NCBI GenBank assembly: GCA_902595715.1
Contig: CACJRI010000001.1
Coordinates: forward strand, 1 to 64,000
DNA length: 64,000 nt
Reading direction: 5' to 3'
Source of the DNA: an uncultured SAR86 cluster bacterium
GTDB taxonomy: Bacteria; Pseudomonadota; Gammaproteobacteria; Magnimaribacterales; AG-339-G14
Shown here: piece by piece, positions 51,576 to 59,147 of the stretch
Layout of the letters: every line of letters starts with the position of its first letter
Position numbering within the stretch: the stretch's first letter is position 1
Program-made: the position numbers and the translations under genes
The notes under the pieces: model-generated
Database searches by the model: none
What the model saw: only the letters and a program-made list of their open reading frames with translations
Told to the model about the DNA's origin: nothing

Positions 51576-53141
51576 ATGAAAATACCTGAAAATAAAACAT
51601 TACAAGAACTTTTCGAGTGGCGCTTTGATAAAACACCTGAGTCAATAGCTCATAAATTTTTAGACCGAGAGACTACATACAAAGATCTAAATAAATTTTC
51701 AAACCAAATTGCTAATGGCTTAATCGACCTTGGCTGTAAACCCAATACAAGAATTGCATATTATGGAAAAAATTCTGACTATTTCTTTGAATGCATAATT
51801 GGCACATTGAAATCAAATACTGTTGCTGTAGGAGTCAATTGGAGATTAGCTCCGCCTGAGGTAAGTTATGTTTTAAATGACTCCGAAAGTGAAGTTCTTT
51901 TTGTAGGTCAAGAGTTTTATCCTATTATCGATCAAATATTAGCCGATCTTCCAAAAATTAAGAAAGTCATCGCAGTTGATGGCGGACATGAAACATTTCA
52001 AGACTTTATCAGTTGGCGAGATTCACAAGACGTTTCAGCTACGGGTCTAAAATCATCCGATGATGATGACATATTACAGCTTTATACATCAGGTACCACA
52101 GGCCATCCTAAAGGCGTACAACTAACAAATAAAAATTTTGCAGCTGCAAATGAATCTGTAAATGGCATTATTCCTTTTGAAGAAGGGAGTACTAATTTAG
52201 TTTGTATGCCAGGTTATCATGTGGCAGGGACCAATTGGGGAATTTGGGGTTACATATTCGGCTGTAGAAATATAATAATTGCTGATATTGATCCTGGGTT
52301 AATCTTAGAGCTTATTCAATCAGAAAAAATTAGATCTTCTTTATTTGTACCTGCGGTGATCCTATTTTTGATCTCACACCCTAATGCACAAACCACAGAT
52401 TTTTCTTCATTAAACTTTGTGCTTTATGGTGCATCGCCCATTGCTGACGATACTATTATGAAAGCCCAAGAAATCATGAAGTGCGATCTATATCAAGTTT
52501 ATGGACTTACTGAAACTACCGGAGCAATAACCATCATGATGCCAGAAGATCATGATCCTGATAAAGGCAAACTCAGATCTTGTGGTAAAGCTCTGAAAGG
52601 TGTCGAGTTAAAAGTTATAGATGAAGAGGGTAATGAATTGGAAACTGGAAAAATAGGGGAGGTCGTCTCTAAATCTCTATTAAACATGAAGGGTTATTGG
52701 AATAAACCAGATGCAACTAAGGAATCAATAGTTGATGGATGGTTTTATTCGGGCGATGCTGGATATTTTGATGATGAAGGATACTTATTCATTCACGATA
52801 GAGTTAAAGACATGATTGTTTCTGGAGGTGAAAATATTTACCCAGCTGAGGTAGAAAACGCTTTGATGAATAATGATGAAATCCTCGATGCTGCTGTTGT
52901 TGGAATTCCCGATGAAAAATGGGGTGAATCTGTTAAAGGATTTGTTGTATTGGGAGCAGATTCTTCTCTATCAGAAGATGAAATTATCAGCTATACCAGA
53001 ACACAAATCGCAGCTTACAAGTGCCCCAAGTCAATAGAGTTCATACAGGAACTTCCTCGAAATCCATCTGGAAAAATACTCAGGAGAGAGTTAAGAGACC
53101 CCTATTGGGAAGGAATAGACAGAAAAGTATCTGGAAATTAA
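51576..53141 (+). CDS. AMP-dependent acyl-CoA synthetase/ligase
   Basis: A 521-aa ANL-superfamily enzyme. It has the P-loop LQLYTSGTTGHPKGVQLTNK, the adenine motif VLYGASPIADD, YQVYGLTETTGA, the hinge GYLFIHDRVKDMIVSGGENI, and the catalytic Lys near the end in PRNPSGKILRREL. It activates a carboxylic acid, probably a fatty acid, to acyl-CoA via acyl-AMP. Length and motif spacing are normal. The palindrome upstream may regulate it. There is a 33-nt gap to the next, unrelated-looking small gene. Confidence 0.93.
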   Translation: MKIPENKTLQELFEWRFDKTPESIAHKFLDRETTYKDLNKFSNQIANGLIDLGCKPNTRIAYYGKNSDYFFECIIGTLKSNTVAVGVNWRLAPPEVSYVLNDSESEVLFVGQEFYPIIDQILADLPKIKKVIAVDGGHETFQDFISWRDSQDVSATGLKSSDDDDILQLYTSGTTGHPKGVQLTNKNFAAANESVNGIIPFEEGSTNLVCMPGYHVAGTNWGIWGYIFGCRNIIIADIDPGLILELIQSEKIRSSLFVPAVILFLISHPNAQTTDFSSLNFVLYGASPIADDTIMKAQEIMKCDLYQVYGLTETTGAITIMMPEDHDPDKGKLRSCGKALKGVELKVIDEEGNELETGKIGEVVSKSLLNMKGYWNKPDATKESIVDGWFYSGDAGYFDDEGYLFIHDRVKDMIVSGGENIYPAEVENALMNNDEILDAAVVGIPDEKWGESVKGFVVLGADSSLSEDEIISYTRTQIAAYKCPKSIEFIQELPRNPSGKILRRELRDPYWEGIDRKVSGN

Positions 53142-53161
53142 TATAGTGTTTGTAAAAAACT

Positions 53162-53167
53162 AGGAGG
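53162..53167 (+). promoter_or_regulatory. Consensus Shine-Dalgarno of the 98-aa repeat protein
   Basis: AGGAGG lies 7 nt before the ATG at 53175. A full consensus site is unusual in this window. Confidence 0.7.
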
Positions 53168-53174
53168 AATTTTA

Positions 53175-53471
53175 ATGGGATACGCTTATAGAAATGATAA
53201 ATTCACTGAAGGTTCTAAAACTATTGCGACAATTAAGCGAGATAAAATTTATGAAGGCAATACGTCTAGAGTAATTTGCAACATAAGGGATGATAAGGTT
53301 CGAGAAAAAACTGGATCCACAACTGTATGCAATGTTAGGAATGGAGATATTAGAAAGATAAATGGGTCCTCCAGAATGGAATACGTAAAAAATGTCAGGA
53401 AACAAATAAGAAACTCAGATGCTGTTTCCGATGTCTTTCTTGCTGGTTTTTGGTATTACTTTATTAAATAA
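53175..53471 (+). CDS. Small repeat protein with ~17-residue beta-type repeats (98 aa)
   Basis: Not recognised with certainty. Tandem units are visible: KTIATIKRDKIYEGNTS, RVICNIRDDKVREKTGS and TTVCNVRNGDIRKINGSS, giving a pattern (I/V)xx(I/V)(R/K)xxxIxExxGS. These look like short beta-hairpin repeats, as in small beta-flower or antifreeze-like repeat proteins. There is no signal peptide; the C-terminus (DVFLAGFWYYFI) is hydrophobic. A consensus ribosome site suggests strong translation. It is convergent with the 104-aa gene, with a symmetrical terminator-like repeat between. Confidence 0.7.
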   Translation: MGYAYRNDKFTEGSKTIATIKRDKIYEGNTSRVICNIRDDKVREKTGSTTVCNVRNGDIRKINGSSRMEYVKNVRKQIRNSDAVSDVFLAGFWYYFIK

Positions 53472-53479
53472 ACTGTAAA

Positions 53480-53509
53480 AAAGTCTTAACCGCAAATGAT
53501 TAAGACTTT
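53480..53509. terminator. Candidate bidirectional terminator between convergent small genes
   Basis: AAAGTCTTAA (53480-53489) and TTAAGACTTT (53500-53509) form a 10-bp stem with a 10-nt loop; T-rich sequence follows on the plus strand (TTTAATTTTG) and T-rich on the minus strand. The stem is AT-rich, hence only moderate confidence. Confidence 0.5.
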
Positions 53510-53814
53510 AATTTTGAAATTATATCTTTAGTTTGTTCGTCTAAATTATTTTGAATACTTTCAACAAGCAAAGATGCAACAAAAGACATTTCAGCAAGGG
53601 GTTCGACAGAATTAGAAGTATGACTAACCGCTTGACACAAACTTCCAAGTCCCTCTGACATATAATTTAGTTTTTTTTCTATATCCTTCTCTCTTCTAGC
53701 ATAGTCAAAGTATCTCTTTGCATCACTAGATTTACTGCTAGCTTTACTAGACTCAGAAATAGCTTTTCTTTTATAACTGTTCGCAGCTACTGCTCTTATC
53801 GCCCATCTCAACAT
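53500..53814 (-). CDS. Hypothetical helical protein (104 aa)
   Basis: Not recognised. It is predicted to be mostly alpha-helical: a basic N-terminus (LRWAIRAVAANSYKRKAISE), a Ser/Lys-rich segment (SSKASSKSSDAKRYF), and amphipathic helices (LNYMSEGLGSLCQAVSH; MSFVASLLVESIQNNLDE). There is no clear signal peptide or membrane helix. A consensus AGGAGG (53823-53828 on the complement) precedes the ATG by 8 nt. It lies 95 nt after the channel-like gene on the same strand and may be cotranscribed with it. Confidence 0.7.
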   Translation of the reverse strand: MLRWAIRAVAANSYKRKAISESSKASSKSSDAKRYFDYARREKDIEKKLNYMSEGLGSLCQAVSHTSNSVEPLAEMSFVASLLVESIQNNLDEQTKDIISKLKS

Positions 53815-53909
53815 AATAATTTCCTCCTTGTTTTCATAAAAATATTTGATAGATCATAAAGATAATCATTTAAATTTGAAATCTCAAAATTTATCTTATC
53901 TTATTAAGA

Positions 53910-56258
53910 TTACTTAGACGTTAAAGTAGGAGAAAATCTCTTAGATTTAATTCTCCTGTAAATAAATATTCCAAGCCCAACAAAACTCAAAGGTAAAAGA
54001 ACTTTTAAGGGAGTAAGTAAGAATAGTGCTAAAGGATTAAATAAATGAACAAGAATAGTGAAGATGATGGTTATTCCAGTCATTGAATAGAACGAAGCAA
54101 AGATAAGATCGACTATTGTCATGCTTAAAGGTTGCGGTCTTTCTGTAGAGAAATATAAAGCTATACTGGCTAAAAAAACTGTTGTCAGTATGGATATTGA
54201 ATCTCCTAACTCATCCAAAGGAACAAAAATCGAATAATAGGTAAGAGCTAATAAAAAAGATAAAGGTAAAAGAATTTTAAAGAGTGTCATTGAGCTACCG
54301 CGTTTAATTTTCCAACCGATTTTTGCTACTTCTTTTACATTTGCATTTTGCAGCAAACTCGAGCCCACTGACTTTTTATCGATTGTTCTAGAAATCCCTG
54401 CATTAGAAGTTAAAAGATCCCATCCTTCTAGCATAAAATTATTGTCAATTTTTCTTACAGGGACTGGATGTATACTTCCAAACTTCTCAGTATTTGATGA
54501 GCTGTAAGATATTGATAAATATTGTTCGTCAAAAGGATAATTATTTGGTATTGCATCAAAATCAAAGTTAGCAGAAATTCTGTATCTAAAATTAATCAAA
54601 TCCCGATTTTCTATATCTTCTTCTTTAGAAATGAGGCTTGTTTCAAATAAGGAATCTTTTTTAGAGAGATTATCAAACTGTAAGATTTCTATTCCTTGAT
54701 CATGCTTAGTGATTAAATCTAAGTAAAATTCTACAGACCAATTTTTATCTTCTATTGAAATCCTAGAAATATTTAAAATATCAAAATACACATAATTTAT
54801 GTCTGAAATTAATAGATTATTTATATAACTTTCTTCAATAACCTGGGCAAAGCCTTCTAGCACTTCTTCATCTTCATTTGCTGTTTCATCCATGCCATCA
54901 AAAGTATTTAATAAGTCTCGAGTTTTGAGATTTGTTTTAAGTTGAACATTATGGAAAAGCTTATAGTATTCATTTTCAGCAGAGTCCTCAAAATGCTCTA
55001 CTTTTTTAAATACTTTTTCATCATCTCTTACATCTCTTATGGTTCTGCTCTCGTTTGCAGATAATCTGCTCGTAAGAAGATTGCTATATTCAGAAGAATC
55101 TTGAGATGAAGGAACTAACCTATAAGTAAAATGACTTGGCTCGATATTAACATTGCCTATAAAGGAATAATTAGCTGTGAGTCCTAAATATTTGTCATTA
55201 ATACCATCGTATCTGTTGATGCCCCATAAAATAGTCTCTAAAAAGTCTCTTCTATTATCAATTTTTATTTTATGGTCATCGATTGATTTTTTGACAAGAT
55301 AAGCAACTTCTAATCCTTTATCAACGAACAAATTATTAAGTTTGTTTTTTTGTAATGAAAGAAAGTTTTCTTTATAAGTAGGAAACTTTTCGTTGAATTC
55401 ATTCCAATCGATATCTAATTTTTCTATGAATTCTTCCATTCTTAAATACAAATCATCATTATTTTTACTGAATGAAATCAATTCTAAATTGTTTAAATTT
55501 TCTAAACCTACAGTCCTTACAAACATGTCAACGAAATTTATTTCTGGATCATCATTTATTAAAAGAATTTTCTGATGGTGTTGTTTATTCGAAAGATGCC
55601 CGATAAACATAGAAATTAATAAATCCAAGCTAAGTCTGACATCAAGAACTAGTAGATCATTTTTACCAATTTGTTCTACTATTTTCTCAATAGAGGAGGG
55701 TAGCTTTAAAGTTTTTTCAGTATATTGCTTTAATTTATCTGAATAAGTAATTAGATTTACTTTATCTAAAAAATCTGGGTCTTCTGAGTCAAAAAAAATG
55801 TCATGTGATGATTCTGGAGGAAGATCATTTTGCCTTTTGTATTCATCAGGATTAGAAAAGAACCAAATCTTATCGATTTTATGCGATGGAACTATTAAGT
55901 TTTCAATAGAGACTTCATCAGAGCATAGATTGTTTCCCAAAGACAAAACATTTTTATATAGCTTCTTGGATATTTTTTGATCAGGAAAAAAAAGACAATA
56001 ATCATTACTGAAAAAATTATCAAGATCGGTAAATCTATTTAAACTATCGCCTTGAAAAAAAAGCGCATTTGGAAATAATTTAAGCAATTCATTTTCACTT
56101 TCGGGGATGTTATCAATTTGTAATAGGTGATAAATAAATTGTTTACCAGAAATTCCCCCGTTTTCATTTATATCTTTTTTGATGAAACTAAGAATTTTTT
56201 CTAAGAGAAACTTTTCGTATTCTTCATCATAAGTAAAGACAAAATCAATGCTATTCAT
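53910..56258 (-). CDS. PBP type 1 domain fused to pentameric ligand-gated ion channel
   Basis: A 782-aa protein. Residues 1-400 resemble a Leu/Ile/Val-type periplasmic-binding domain: IDFVFTYDEEYEKFLLEKIL then NENGGISGKQ at 31-40. From about 480 the sequence follows the Cys-loop receptor ligand-binding fold: YVYFDILNISRISIEDKNWS, VEFYLDLIT, and the hallmark FDFDAIPNNYPFDEQ near 565-579. Four helices follow: M1 (about 661-681, ILLPLSF), M2 (688-705), a loop PLSMTIVDLIFASFY matching the bacterial ELIC M2-M3 region, M3 and M4. No signal peptide precedes the binding domain, and a stop codon lies immediately upstream. It is 5 nt from the acidic gene. Confidence 0.75.
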   Translation of the reverse strand: MNSIDFVFTYDEEYEKFLLEKILSFIKKDINENGGISGKQFIYHLLQIDNIPESENELLKLFPNALFFQGDSLNRFTDLDNFFSNDYCLFFPDQKISKKLYKNVLSLGNNLCSDEVSIENLIVPSHKIDKIWFFSNPDEYKRQNDLPPESSHDIFFDSEDPDFLDKVNLITYSDKLKQYTEKTLKLPSSIEKIVEQIGKNDLLVLDVRLSLDLLISMFIGHLSNKQHHQKILLINDDPEINFVDMFVRTVGLENLNNLELISFSKNNDDLYLRMEEFIEKLDIDWNEFNEKFPTYKENFLSLQKNKLNNLFVDKGLEVAYLVKKSIDDHKIKIDNRRDFLETILWGINRYDGINDKYLGLTANYSFIGNVNIEPSHFTYRLVPSSQDSSEYSNLLTSRLSANESRTIRDVRDDEKVFKKVEHFEDSAENEYYKLFHNVQLKTNLKTRDLLNTFDGMDETANEDEEVLEGFAQVIEESYINNLLISDINYVYFDILNISRISIEDKNWSVEFYLDLITKHDQGIEILQFDNLSKKDSLFETSLISKEEDIENRDLINFRYRISANFDFDAIPNNYPFDEQYLSISYSSSNTEKFGSIHPVPVRKIDNNFMLEGWDLLTSNAGISRTIDKKSVGSSLLQNANVKEVAKIGWKIKRGSSMTLFKILLPLSFLLALTYYSIFVPLDELGDSISILTTVFLASIALYFSTERPQPLSMTIVDLIFASFYSMTGITIIFTILVHLFNPLALFLLTPLKVLLPLSFVGLGIFIYRRIKSKRFSPTLTSK

Positions 56259-56263
56259 TTAAA

Positions 56264-56632
56264 TTAATCACCCAGTTCTTTTAATTCTTCTTCCGAAAGC
56301 TCAGCATTAATGTTTGCCTTTTTAAAATCTTCCAAGCTTTCATCATCAGAGTCTTCATCAATATCTTCTAGTAATTCTTTTAGTTCATCTTCAGAAAATT
56401 CTTCTTCTAAAATTTCATCAATTTCTTCATCCGATATCATTAAATCATCATCATCTAAATCATCATCATCTAAATCATCATCATCATCATCATCAAGAAG
56501 GGATTTTAATTCTGGAAATTTTTCAAACATTTTTTCCTGATCGCCTTCAGATAATTTAAGAAAATTCTCAACAAACTCATCTTCAGATAATGAGTCGATC
56601 TCTTCTTCAGTCATCTCGAGTAAACTTTTCAT
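56264..56632 (-). CDS. Highly acidic Asp-rich low-complexity protein (122 aa)
   Basis: Not recognised. The protein is dominated by Asp and Glu, with a central run LLDDDDDDDLDDDDLDDDDL around residues 45-64 and Glu-rich helices on both sides (MTEEEIDSLSEDEFVENF; SEDELKELLEDIDEDSDDE). There is no signal peptide, so it is cytoplasmic as written. Low-complexity Asp runs can bind Ca2+ or other cations, or basic proteins. It is immediately upstream (5 nt) of the channel-like gene and probably its operon partner. The trinucleotide repeats encoding the Asp run could expand or contract. Confidence 0.75.
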   Translation of the reverse strand: MKSLLEMTEEEIDSLSEDEFVENFLKLSEGDQEKMFEKFPELKSLLDDDDDDDLDDDDLDDDDLMISDEEIDEILEEEFSEDELKELLEDIDEDSDDESLEDFKKANINAELSEEELKELGD

Positions 56633-56720
56633 CTTTAATCCTTTATCTTTTAGGTAATATATCTTAGTTTAATCTTGCAAATAATTCACAATTAGTCTTG
56701 CCTAGTTCTAAAATAGAGAT

Positions 56721-57974
56721 ATGAAATATATTTTTAGTCTAGCTTTCCTATTATTTTCTTTTAACGCAATTTCATTGCCTGATTTTTACGGGCATTTGAA
56801 TTTATCAGCTGATTATTATTTTGGAGAGTCATCTCAAATAGACGTAGATTTAAAAAGCAATGTGTCAAGACTGGGTGTAAGAGGTGATTTTAGAATTAAT
56901 GAAAATATAACCGGGATCTATCAAGTTGAGTATCAAGTTGATTTAGAAGCTTCGCCAACCACAAGAAATACTTTTCTTGGTTTAAAAGGTAATTTTGGCA
57001 CCATAAAAGCTGGCAAGCACGATACTCCCTTAAAATTGGCTCAATTGGATGCAGATTTATTCAATGACACGCAGGGCGATATTGCGAATATTACGAGAGG
57101 TGAAAACAGACCTTCTTCATATCTAGGTTATGATTCGCCTGAAATTGCTAAAGGTCTAAGACTCAGTTTGGGTCTCAGTAAAACCAGTTACGTAAAAAAT
57201 AATTTTTTTGCATGCAAAAGTGTAAGTACTTTCAGTAATGTGGGAGGATGCCTTCAATACGAGTATGAATATTCTAATCATGAAGCCCAGTCTTTAGAGA
57301 CGGTTCCTGTACTTGGAATTCCTCTTCAAGGAATTCCTCTTCAAGGCATCCATTCACCAGGTACGATAATTACGAGCGGATTGCAAAATAATCTTAATAT
57401 CCTTGCATCACCATGTGATTCTCCTTCTGCTGCATTTTTAGCATCTTTAAATACACCAGTTGGAACCAACGCAATTGGAACTGTTCCAAATCCAAATCTG
57501 TCTTCTTCAAGATGTTATAGGTCTTTTGGAAGAAATATTTCTATTTCTTTAAATTATTCTACTGATGTTATTAGGTTTGCAATTGCTTCACAAAAAAACG
57601 GTAAAGAAGGTTTTGACCACAACCGACTCGGTATGGTGATTCCCGCAGGACCATCTACTATTGGTTTTATATACACAAGTACAAGTTCCTCAAAATCTAC
57701 GTATTCTCAAGGGGGTTCTTTTTTTGATTATGAAGCTTTCACGGCAAGTGTAAAAACAGAACTAATGGATGGAAAAGGAATTCTTAAAATTCAATACGAC
57801 AGATCAAATGCAATAGATGACTTGGAACAGACTCAAATTGGATATGATCATAATCTAACGAATAGCTTTAAGGTTTTTACTTACTTAACTCATCGTTCAA
57901 ATATTAATACTTACGATTCCTTTCTAAGTGTTGGCATTGAATATAAATTTAATCATTCATTTTCTAAACAGTAA
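56721..57974 (+). CDS. Outer-membrane general porin (Gram-negative porin type)
   Basis: A 417-aa protein with a signal peptide (KYIFSLAFLLFSFNAIS) and start DFYGHLNLSADYYFG. Porin blocks include LGVRGDFRINENITGIYQVEYQV, FLGLKGNFGTIKAGKHDTPL (the porin loop-3 approach) and a terminal LSVGIEYKFNHSF. It should form a 16-strand trimeric channel. One surface-loop-like insertion (residues about 195-270, Pro/Gly/Ser-rich) includes a duplicated GIPLQ unit, coded by a 15-bp tandem repeat. It is divergent from the acidic/channel operon, and the lipoprotein gene starts on its last base. Confidence 0.85.
   Translation: MKYIFSLAFLLFSFNAISLPDFYGHLNLSADYYFGESSQIDVDLKSNVSRLGVRGDFRINENITGIYQVEYQVDLEASPTTRNTFLGLKGNFGTIKAGKHDTPLKLAQLDADLFNDTQGDIANITRGENRPSSYLGYDSPEIAKGLRLSLGLSKTSYVKNNFFACKSVSTFSNVGGCLQYEYEYSNHEAQSLETVPVLGIPLQGIPLQGIHSPGTIITSGLQNNLNILASPCDSPSAAFLASLNTPVGTNAIGTVPNPNLSSSRCYRSFGRNISISLNYSTDVIRFAIASQKNGKEGFDHNRLGMVIPAGPSTIGFIYTSTSSSKSTYSQGGSFFDYEAFTASVKTELMDGKGILKIQYDRSNAIDDLEQTQIGYDHNLTNSFKVFTYLTHRSNINTYDSFLSVGIEYKFNHSFSKQ
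57315..57344 (+). repeat. 15-bp tandem duplication inside the porin gene
   Basis: GGAATTCCTCTTCAA occurs twice in direct succession (57315-57329 and 57330-57344), encoding G-I-P-L-Q twice in a likely surface loop. An in-frame repeat of this kind can vary in copy number without breaking the reading frame. Confidence 0.7.
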
Positions 57975-58501
57975 TGATGAAAGTAATAAAGACGCCTGCT
58001 CTGTTAGTTCTTCTATTTCTATTATCAAATTGTTCAGATCAAGGTAACGCTTTAGTTACTCAACAGTGCACTATGGACCCTTATGAAAATTTTGGAAAAG
58101 TTAAATGTGTTTTTATGAATGAGGGTTCAATAGCAGGAAGTATTTGTAAGTCTGCCTCTTTGGTAAGAAACAAATCAGATTATAAGATAGACGAGTCTGG
58201 TCGCCCGGTCATACGCTGGGACGGAATCAAGGATTTTAACTATCGGTATTCAAGACGTTATGGAGAATATGGTCGGGGTCTTTTATATCCTGAGAGGCAA
58301 ATTAGCTCAAATGGTAAAATTTGCTCTGGGATTCTTGAGCCGGAAGAAATTGTTGAAAGATCTATGAACTTCTTTTTTACATTACCAGGACCGTCATTTG
58401 GTAAAAATTACTCACTAACCAAATTTTGTAATCCTCCTAATGATAGTAGTCTTAGAAGTATATGGAAAGGTTGCGATTGGGTATTAGTTGATATTGACTA
58501 A
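57974..58501 (+). CDS. Putative lipoprotein (175 aa)
   Basis: The N-terminus MKVIKTPALLVLLFLLSNC is a lipoprotein signal with lipobox LSNC, Cys at residue 20. The mature part is rich in Cys (seven or more, e.g. QQCTMDPYENFGKVKCVF, GSICKSAS, GKICSG, KFCNPP, KGCDW), suggesting disulfides in the periplasm. No domain is recognised. It is coupled to the porin gene by TAATG and presumably cotranscribed. An integrase remnant begins right after its stop. Confidence 0.75.
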   Translation: MMKVIKTPALLVLLFLLSNCSDQGNALVTQQCTMDPYENFGKVKCVFMNEGSIAGSICKSASLVRNKSDYKIDESGRPVIRWDGIKDFNYRYSRRYGEYGRGLLYPERQISSNGKICSGILEPEEIVERSMNFFFTLPGPSFGKNYSLTKFCNPPNDSSLRSIWKGCDWVLVDID

Positions 58502-58503
58502 AT

Positions 58504-58641
58504 GGATTGGCTCCTACATTAAAAAGACTTGGACACTTTGATACTACGACCACGCTTAGATACTATGCTCATTTAGTTCCCAATAACGATTCTAGTCGTG
58601 TAGAATCCTTTGAAAATTCAATCTTAGGAAACCAAAATTAA
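58504..58641 (+). pseudogene. C-terminal remnant of a tyrosine recombinase (integrase)
   Basis: A 45-codon open stretch without a start reads LAPTLKRLGHFDTTTTLRYY, then AHLVPNNDSSRV and a short tail. This is the C-terminal catalytic box of phage-type integrases: the conserved LGH followed by T-T and the nucleophile Tyr in YYAHL. A stop codon (58495-58497, in this frame) cuts it off from any upstream part, and the preceding bases belong to the lipoprotein gene. It lies 91 nt before a tRNA-Ser gene, a usual integration target, so it marks a decayed mobile element. Confidence 0.75.
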
Positions 58642-58732
58642 GCGAACACCTATGCGAAAAAGATTGGTGACATTTTTGGTAACACCTTCAATTGGATTCT
58701 TCAAGAACGCTCTGAAGCGCTTATATATCAAT

Positions 58733-58824
58733 GGAGGGGTGGCAGAGCTTGGTTGAATGCACCGGTCTTGAAAACCGGCAGGTCAGCAATGGCCTCGTGG
58801 GTTCGAATCCCACCCCCTCCGCCA
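58733..58824 (+). tRNA. tRNA-Ser(UGA)
   Basis: A 92-nt class II tRNA. The acceptor GGAGGGG (58733-58739) pairs with CCCCTCC (58814-58820), then G and encoded CCA to 58824. The anticodon stem CCGGT/ACCGG encloses the loop CTTGAAA with anticodon TGA, reading UCA/UCG and wobble partners. A long variable arm (GCAGGTCAGCAATGGCCTCG) is present. Confidence 0.97.
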
Positions 58825-58915
58825 TATTTTTTTCAAAAAAGTCTCTCTCATAATCTTAAGAGATAAAAGAATTTTTTTTTATGAAAACATAGTCTTAAAA
58901 GAGTGATTTTCGCTA
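58825..58915. other. Intergenic spacer after tRNA-Ser(UGA)
   Basis: About 90 nt of AT-rich sequence with poly-T (58871-58880) and no gene that I can support. The T-runs just after the tRNA (TATTTTTTTC) may help end tRNA transcription. Confidence 0.4.
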
Positions 58916-58943
58916 TTGCAAATAAGTTCGAATTGCATAGAAT
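58916..58943 (+). promoter_or_regulatory. Candidate promoter of the structured RNA / trpS
   Basis: TTGCAA (58916-58921) and TAGAAT (58938-58943) are spaced by 16 nt, close to a sigma-70 promoter; the start would be near 58950. Confidence 0.5.
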
Positions 58944-58949
58944 AATTTA

Positions 58950-59136
58950 CAAGCTTTAGTGAAAGATTTTCTAACTCGAGACGGAAAAAGGGAAGCTAAA
59001 GAATAGAAGGAAAAGGGTGAGAAGACGTAAGAAATTACGCCACCTGCAGGGAGAAGGGTTTTTCGCCTGCGCTAGTCAACCCACTAGACCCCTTTAACTT
59101 CGGTTAAAAAACACCACTTCGTTGGTGTTTTTTTTT
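58950..59136 (+). ncRNA. Structured RNA candidate upstream of trpS (sRNA or leader), unidentified
   Basis: About 187 nt with no credible reading frame but several perfect stems: CTTTAG/CTAAAG (58954-58959 with 58996-59001); CGTAA-GAAA-TTACG (59026-59039, GNRA tetraloop); GCAGG/CCTGC (59046-59050 with 59066-59070); CTAGT/ACTAG (59072-59076 with 59083-59087); TTTAAC-TTCG-GTTAAA (59093-59108, UUCG tetraloop); and a final terminator. AAAGGG (59012-59017) can pair with CCCTTT (59090-59095). Loop bases GGGTT (59056-59060) and AACCC (59078-59082) are complementary, allowing a kissing interaction. I cannot match it to 6S, SRP, tmRNA, RNase P, T-box or a known riboswitch. Confidence 0.6.
59107..59136 (+). 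terminator. Rho-independent terminator 11 nt before trpS
   Basis: AAAAACACCA (59107-59116) pairs with TGGTGTTTTT (59123-59132) around the loop CTTCGT, ending in nine Ts (59128-59136). It ends 11 nt before the trpS ATG, so it either closes an independent small RNA or acts as an attenuator for trpS. Confidence 0.88.
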
Positions 59137-59147
59137 ATACTAACCAA

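Follow-up and report, generated by a model that had tools for sequence, protein, structure and literature searches.

Cys-loop/Pro-loop channels, the pentameric ligand-gated ion channels (pLGICs), are textbook outside-in sensors. In ordinary pLGICs the M3–M4 loop is cytoplasmic and the C-terminus extracytoplasmic, and ELIC and GLIC are secreted with an N-out topology. Fusions of type I periplasmic-binding protein (PBP-I) domains to bacterial pLGICs were described in 2005 by Tasneem et al. in Magnetospirillum and Bradyrhizobium (PMC549065), and the same study found an N-terminal signal peptide in all bacterial pLGICs that it reported. The main determinant of membrane topology in bacteria is the positive-inside rule (PMC9099147). 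Orientation has been switched via relocated positive charges in the YdgE/YdgF and EmrE-type families, in a review whose text contains no ligand-gated or Cys-loop channel (PMC3962082). Our literature search, with subscription papers and preprints outside its reach, returned no relevant paper on inverted pLGICs, and nothing relevant on SAR86 with ligand-gated channels or on pLGICs lacking signal peptides.

SAR86 bacteria are abundant ocean heterotrophs. The window analysed here is a stretch of 64,000 nucleotides from an uncultured member with a genome of ~1.2 Mb. It contains a 782-aa ORF in which the earlier note had seen the fusion of a PBP domain with a pLGIC, in a bacterium that is small and marine. 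The ORF is present and runs on the minus strand from 56258 to 53910, a strand that had not been given; NENGGISGKQ, YPFDEQ and the M2–M3 segment PLSMTIVDLIFASFY, on which the reading was built, are all found in the protein. The fusion itself is upheld by fold, by the match to ELIC and by Peripla_BP_6 in the outgroup. The features of the locus are as follows.

53910..56258, minus strand: PBP-I/pLGIC fusion subunit (P0001), 782 aa; an ORF with homologues in further SAR86 genomes.
55059..56258, minus strand: predicted type-I PBP domain, residues 1–400; from the model of the homologue L028, hhalign and hydrophobicity.
54816..55058, minus strand: charged linker, residues ~401–481; from alignments and composition.
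54285..54815, minus strand: predicted pLGIC beta-sandwich ligand-binding domain with the Pro-loop YPFDEQ, residues ~482–658; from phmmer, profile, AlphaFold and fold match.
53961..54284, minus strand: predicted transmembrane helices M1–M4, residues ~659–766; from AlphaFold and alignment.
53913..53960, minus strand: basic C-terminal tail YRRIKSKRFSPTLTSK, residues 767–782; from alignment and charge counts.
56264..56632, minus strand: D/E-rich ORF of 122 aa with an Asp run; conserved only in G015.

For the channel module, the best PDB sequence match of the window protein in phmmer was ELIC (E=2.5e-5, residues 552–766). With a family profile ELIC improved to 3e-10, and GLIC, DeCLIC and eukaryotic channels were also matched; the Pfam Neur_chan models gave no match to the SAR86 proteins. 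In the whole-protein AlphaFold model, which is of low confidence (pLDDT 50) and was used for its channel part alone, residues 487–653 form a beta-sandwich and residues 655–771 four helices. Residues ~471–780 of this low-confidence model matched pLGIC chains exclusively among the 50 matches listed by VIA-align (Z 16.6–17.2), and pLGIC chains were matched by Foldseek with an E of 2e-12. The profile search and the beta-sandwich with four helices came out as the earlier note had anticipated. NYPFDEQ is invariant across the SAR86 alignment (YPFDEQ being residues ~574–579 in the window protein), as are the M1 proline P665 and, in the SAR86 clade, the 9′ Leu of M2. M2 and the M2–M3 loop are the most conserved stretch of these proteins. 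M2 of the window protein carries D-1′, S2′, T6′, L9′, A13′, F16′ and E19′, and the 6′ position is hydrophobic in several SAR86 members.

No Pfam model matches the SAR86 N-domains, and their profile found nothing significant among PDB sequences, with a best E of 0.07 for a proteasome subunit and non-significant values of 0.22 and 2.3 for Leu/Ile/Val (LIV)-binding proteins. Thus, it is the fold and the alignment with outgroups that support the PBP assignment. The N-domain of the SAR86 homologue L028, modelled from an alignment with six relatives, the window protein among them, takes the LIV-binding-protein fold in AlphaFold (pLDDT 79). This model matched a leucine-binding protein in Foldseek (E 4e-12) and 2liv in VIA (Z 18.3 over 320 residues), in agreement with the bilobed N-terminal domain that had been expected, and in the 2liv alignment its residue 2 falls on the first residue of the mature protein. 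The nearest outgroup, Filomicrobium L032, carries Peripla_BP_6 (PF13458) at the equivalent position (E 3.4e-11), and the corresponding region of L023 in G561 matches Peripla_BP_6 at 6e-46. In hhalign, moreover, the SAR86 N-domain and the PBP domains of the outgroups align across 311 columns with an E of 0.0014, versus 0.68 for the reversed control. By sequence comparison and modelling, the composition of PBP plus pLGIC is confirmed far beyond chance. The ligand motif of LIV-binding proteins is not evident, and thus ligand binding by the PBP domain could have been lost; by eye, loops near the expected ligand site vary between SAR86 subgroups. In the SAR86 alignments, the linker (~401–481) is mostly an insertion present only in the window species and G015, and the 96 residues 387–482 hold 23 D/E and 11 K/R.

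Signal peptides were assessed by the highest 12-residue hydropathy within the first 45 residues, with all possible starts considered. Intact N-termini from eight SAR86 species (the window species, G015, L025, L027, L028, L029, L030 and L123) open at strand 1 of the PBP domain (MNSIDFVFTYD, MKTIDFVFNYE, MSKPIKFLLWSAS, MEKIGFLTWYR), and a signal peptide, or space for one, was found by hydropathy and upstream frames in none of the eight. Peak N-terminal hydropathy was 0.77–1.24 in SAR86 (0.54 in L123) versus 2.33–3.75 in 27 of the 28 other rows; the remaining row, L036, is a start-window artefact with an evident signal peptide MPKTLFAALLLLAG further inside its ORF. A TAA codon stands in frame directly before the ATG of the window gene, so that the ORF cannot begin earlier, and in-frame upstream stops leave 0–6 codons in most SAR86 members and 17 in one. 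An upstream start or a frameshift supplying a signal peptide was rejected on the basis of this TAA and of the 1–17 codons left in the others. For the porin encoded nearby in the window, this hydropathy measure indicates a normal signal peptide, and an export signal or anchor is present in the Filomicrobium-type nearest relatives, in distant PBP-pLGICs and in simple pLGICs.

Judged by eye, the N-terminus of several PBP-pLGICs seems to be a membrane anchor that stays uncleaved, in place of a cleavable signal peptide (L048, L050, L053 and L055; likewise L056, L062, L064, L065 and L067–L069). A ninth SAR86 record, L026 4197–6260 (also L014, G139), lacks a signal peptide and has an odd N-terminus: it is nearly identical to L027 beyond residue ~85 and carries a differing, out-of-register stretch GGIGETKDRLTRLRTDLG before it, which we attribute to an assembly fault or a local rearrangement.

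The distribution of charges also differs between the SAR86 clade and its relatives. Our topology measures were a hydropathy scale and charge counts built for this analysis and selected after the alignment had been inspected, and loop boundaries were likewise set by hand once it had been seen; on this basis, K/R after M4 number 4–7 in the SAR86 clade versus 0–2 in relatives, and K/R in M3–M4 number 1–2 versus 2–6. The summed K/R bias is +6 to +12 in SAR86 versus −5 to +3 in 28 relatives, with disjoint ranges. The M3–M4 loop is shortened and often acidic in SAR86. The tail (six K/R and no acidic residue in the window protein) is kept across the clade with the pattern (K/R)xRxxSx(K/R)(Y/F)xP and is missing from relatives. 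Read by the positive-inside rule, the charge shift favours an N-in/C-in arrangement, and the absent signal and the swapped charges are two separate sequence features that both predict it. Since the signal peptide is absent and the charges are inverted, the most likely place of the binding domain is on the cytoplasmic side, away from periplasmic nutrients. Sensing by a nutrient-binding domain, as the earlier note proposed, would then mean sensing of an intracellular solute.

SAR86 also has a second pLGIC type without a PBP domain (L124, 442–1914, in G004; and L133 in G127, which runs off its contig). In L124, which serves as a control from the same genus, a signal peptide is present (MKKKLSKYLFFAFMYIFFSSSIFG, hydropathy 1.92), M3–M4 contains four K/R and the tail none, and the bias is −2. 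These ordinary values argue that the SAR86 background alone does not yield the inverted pattern. An extra transmembrane segment between the PBP domain and the ECD could restore parity, and the only candidate is a non-conserved, borderline window of 19 residues within the PBP domain of P0001 (202–220, hydropathy 1.85, containing charges); this was rejected. The parity argument would fail were M1 or M4 not inserted. Cys residues number 1–6 in SAR86 sensor bodies versus 0–2 in exported relatives; Cys content as a sign of a reducing compartment was dropped, the exported L124 having 4 Cys in 348 residues.

The SAR86 members form one clade (support 100/100) in a phylogeny built from the channel part, and hence a single evolutionary event is indicated rather than eight independent ones. 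The clade is sister (100/99) to the signal-peptide-bearing L032, L041 and L042, amid signal-bearing PBP-pLGICs, in a tree whose root was not inferred. The simplest account of these sequences would be that the signal was lost along the stem of SAR86. Compared with G015, the window species shows a dN/dS of 0.03 in the channel, 0.11 in the middle part and 0.18 in the PBP domain; among L025, L028 and L029 the overall value is about 0.1. Purifying selection this strong, with a channel value of 0.03, points to a functional protein. Three genera, with six species or more between them, have intact full-length frames (dN/dS 0.03–0.2). The PBP-pLGIC copy of G003 (L006, L031), from the same genus, is disrupted by several stop codons.

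At a loose threshold, pLGIC matches occur in 12 of 203 genomes of the order, two of them being of the other pLGIC type. A profile search of genomes sampled across the phylum gave matches in 32 of 398, many to PBP-pLGIC proteins of 700–800 aa, which number more than a dozen. The statement in the earlier note that such fusions had been reported is borne out (Tasneem 2005, PMC549065), but not that they are rare; this architecture was known before, is not very rare, and is common in some lineages. A viral origin was considered and dropped: of 75 stretches in viral contigs that matched the pattern, none was a relative.

The channel gene sits between a conserved AMP-dependent ligase gene (51576–53141) and trpS (59148). 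The interval 53142–59147, which here holds channel, porin and lipoprotein genes, carries different genes in each sister species examined and is thus a variable insertion site; the channel gene is accessory in the order. The D/E-rich ORF ends 5 bases upstream of the channel ATG and has a dN/dS of 0.28. A 98-aa ORF (53175–53471) shows a weak match, below the cut-off, to 6-fold beta-flower proteins (PF21786, E 8.6e-6). In other genera the neighbours differ and include, by eye, candidate SDR, VOC-type or DUF1330-like ORFs.

The best explanation of these observations as a whole, with a probability of roughly two in three, is a pLGIC subunit that sits inverted in the membrane, with gating by a ligand from inside the cell. 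The fuller statement, a pLGIC lineage that inserts inside out, holds both its PBP and its agonist-binding domains in the cytoplasm and is gated by intracellular metabolites, we consider somewhat better than an even bet. According to our model, each protein would be a subunit of a homopentamer, comprising a type-I PBP domain, a pLGIC beta-sandwich and a four-helix pore. SAR86 members would have lost an ancestral signal peptide; with this loss and the reversed charges of their membrane domain, the N- and C-termini and both sensor domains would be placed in the cytoplasm. A cytoplasmic solute may then bind the PBP domain and/or the beta-sandwich, upon which the beta-sandwich would rotate and M2 would open. 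Acidic or polar residues would ring the pore from −2′ to 2′, with a Leu 9′ gate and, in the inverted orientation, the −1′ ring facing the periplasm. We infer that such a pore conducts and, from the M2 residues, that it is probably cation-selective.

Outside SAR86 the homologues are exported, and a periplasmic location is usual for both domain types, which would fit an ordinary orientation with periplasmic sensors, reached without a cleavable signal by an unrecognised route such as an atypical export signal or post-translational translocation of the ~650-residue N-terminal part. However, the hydrophobic N-terminal segment is missing in eight species, the move of basic charges from M3–M4 to the C-tail would leave about six K/R periplasmic, and the second SAR86 pLGIC and the neighbouring porin retain signal peptides; we regard ordinary orientation as unlikely. 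Alternatively, the orientation may be cytoplasmic and the protein a membrane-bound metabolite sensor, with the membrane part serving as an anchor or a non-conducting receptor. Identity to characterised channels is low (the phmmer value above), 6′ is hydrophobic in several members and pLGIC gating is not known to occur in an inverted orientation, but no other part evolves as slowly as the channel module (dN/dS 0.03), M2 and the M2–M3 loop are the most conserved and the 9′ Leu is invariant, which makes a non-channel quite improbable.

The broken G003 copy and the patchy presence in the order could also be signs of a degenerating gene, whose decay would have begun with the loss of the signal and whose product would be mislocalised or without function. 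We give this very little credence, since frames are intact across species and genera under purifying selection, and the conservation of a newly arisen C-tail implies that a new state is being selected.

The novelty would lie in the membrane orientation that the SAR86 clade implies. A natural clade with the signal removed and the charges swapped offers a test case for topology evolution in a large gated receptor. If the inside-out orientation is true, pLGICs would also read internal metabolites, and SAR86 would have a new kind of signalling protein.

Compared with known systems, the PBP-I-fused pLGICs (the set of Tasneem et al., Filomicrobium L032, and the G917 and G793 homologues) have the same domain order as the SAR86 protein, and those included here are the nearest relatives of the SAR86 clade in the channel tree. 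They have a signal or anchor, a basic M3–M4 loop and, save L042, no tail, whereas the SAR86 clade is opposite on all three. ELIC and GLIC share the Pro-loop, the M1 proline, the 9′ leucine/isoleucine and the pore-domain pattern, but are without an N-terminal PBP domain. DeCLIC shares an accessory N-terminal domain ahead of the ECD; its domain, however, consists, on the periplasmic side, of a pair of beta-rich jelly-roll lobes (PMC12664993, PMC9897478) and is not a PBP. The amino-terminal domains of ionotropic glutamate receptors likewise place an LIVBP-like fold ahead of a ligand-gated channel, but there the channel domain is unrelated and tetrameric and the sensors are extracellular. YdgE/YdgF and the EmrE-type families, unlike the SAR86 pLGIC, are small symmetric transporters.
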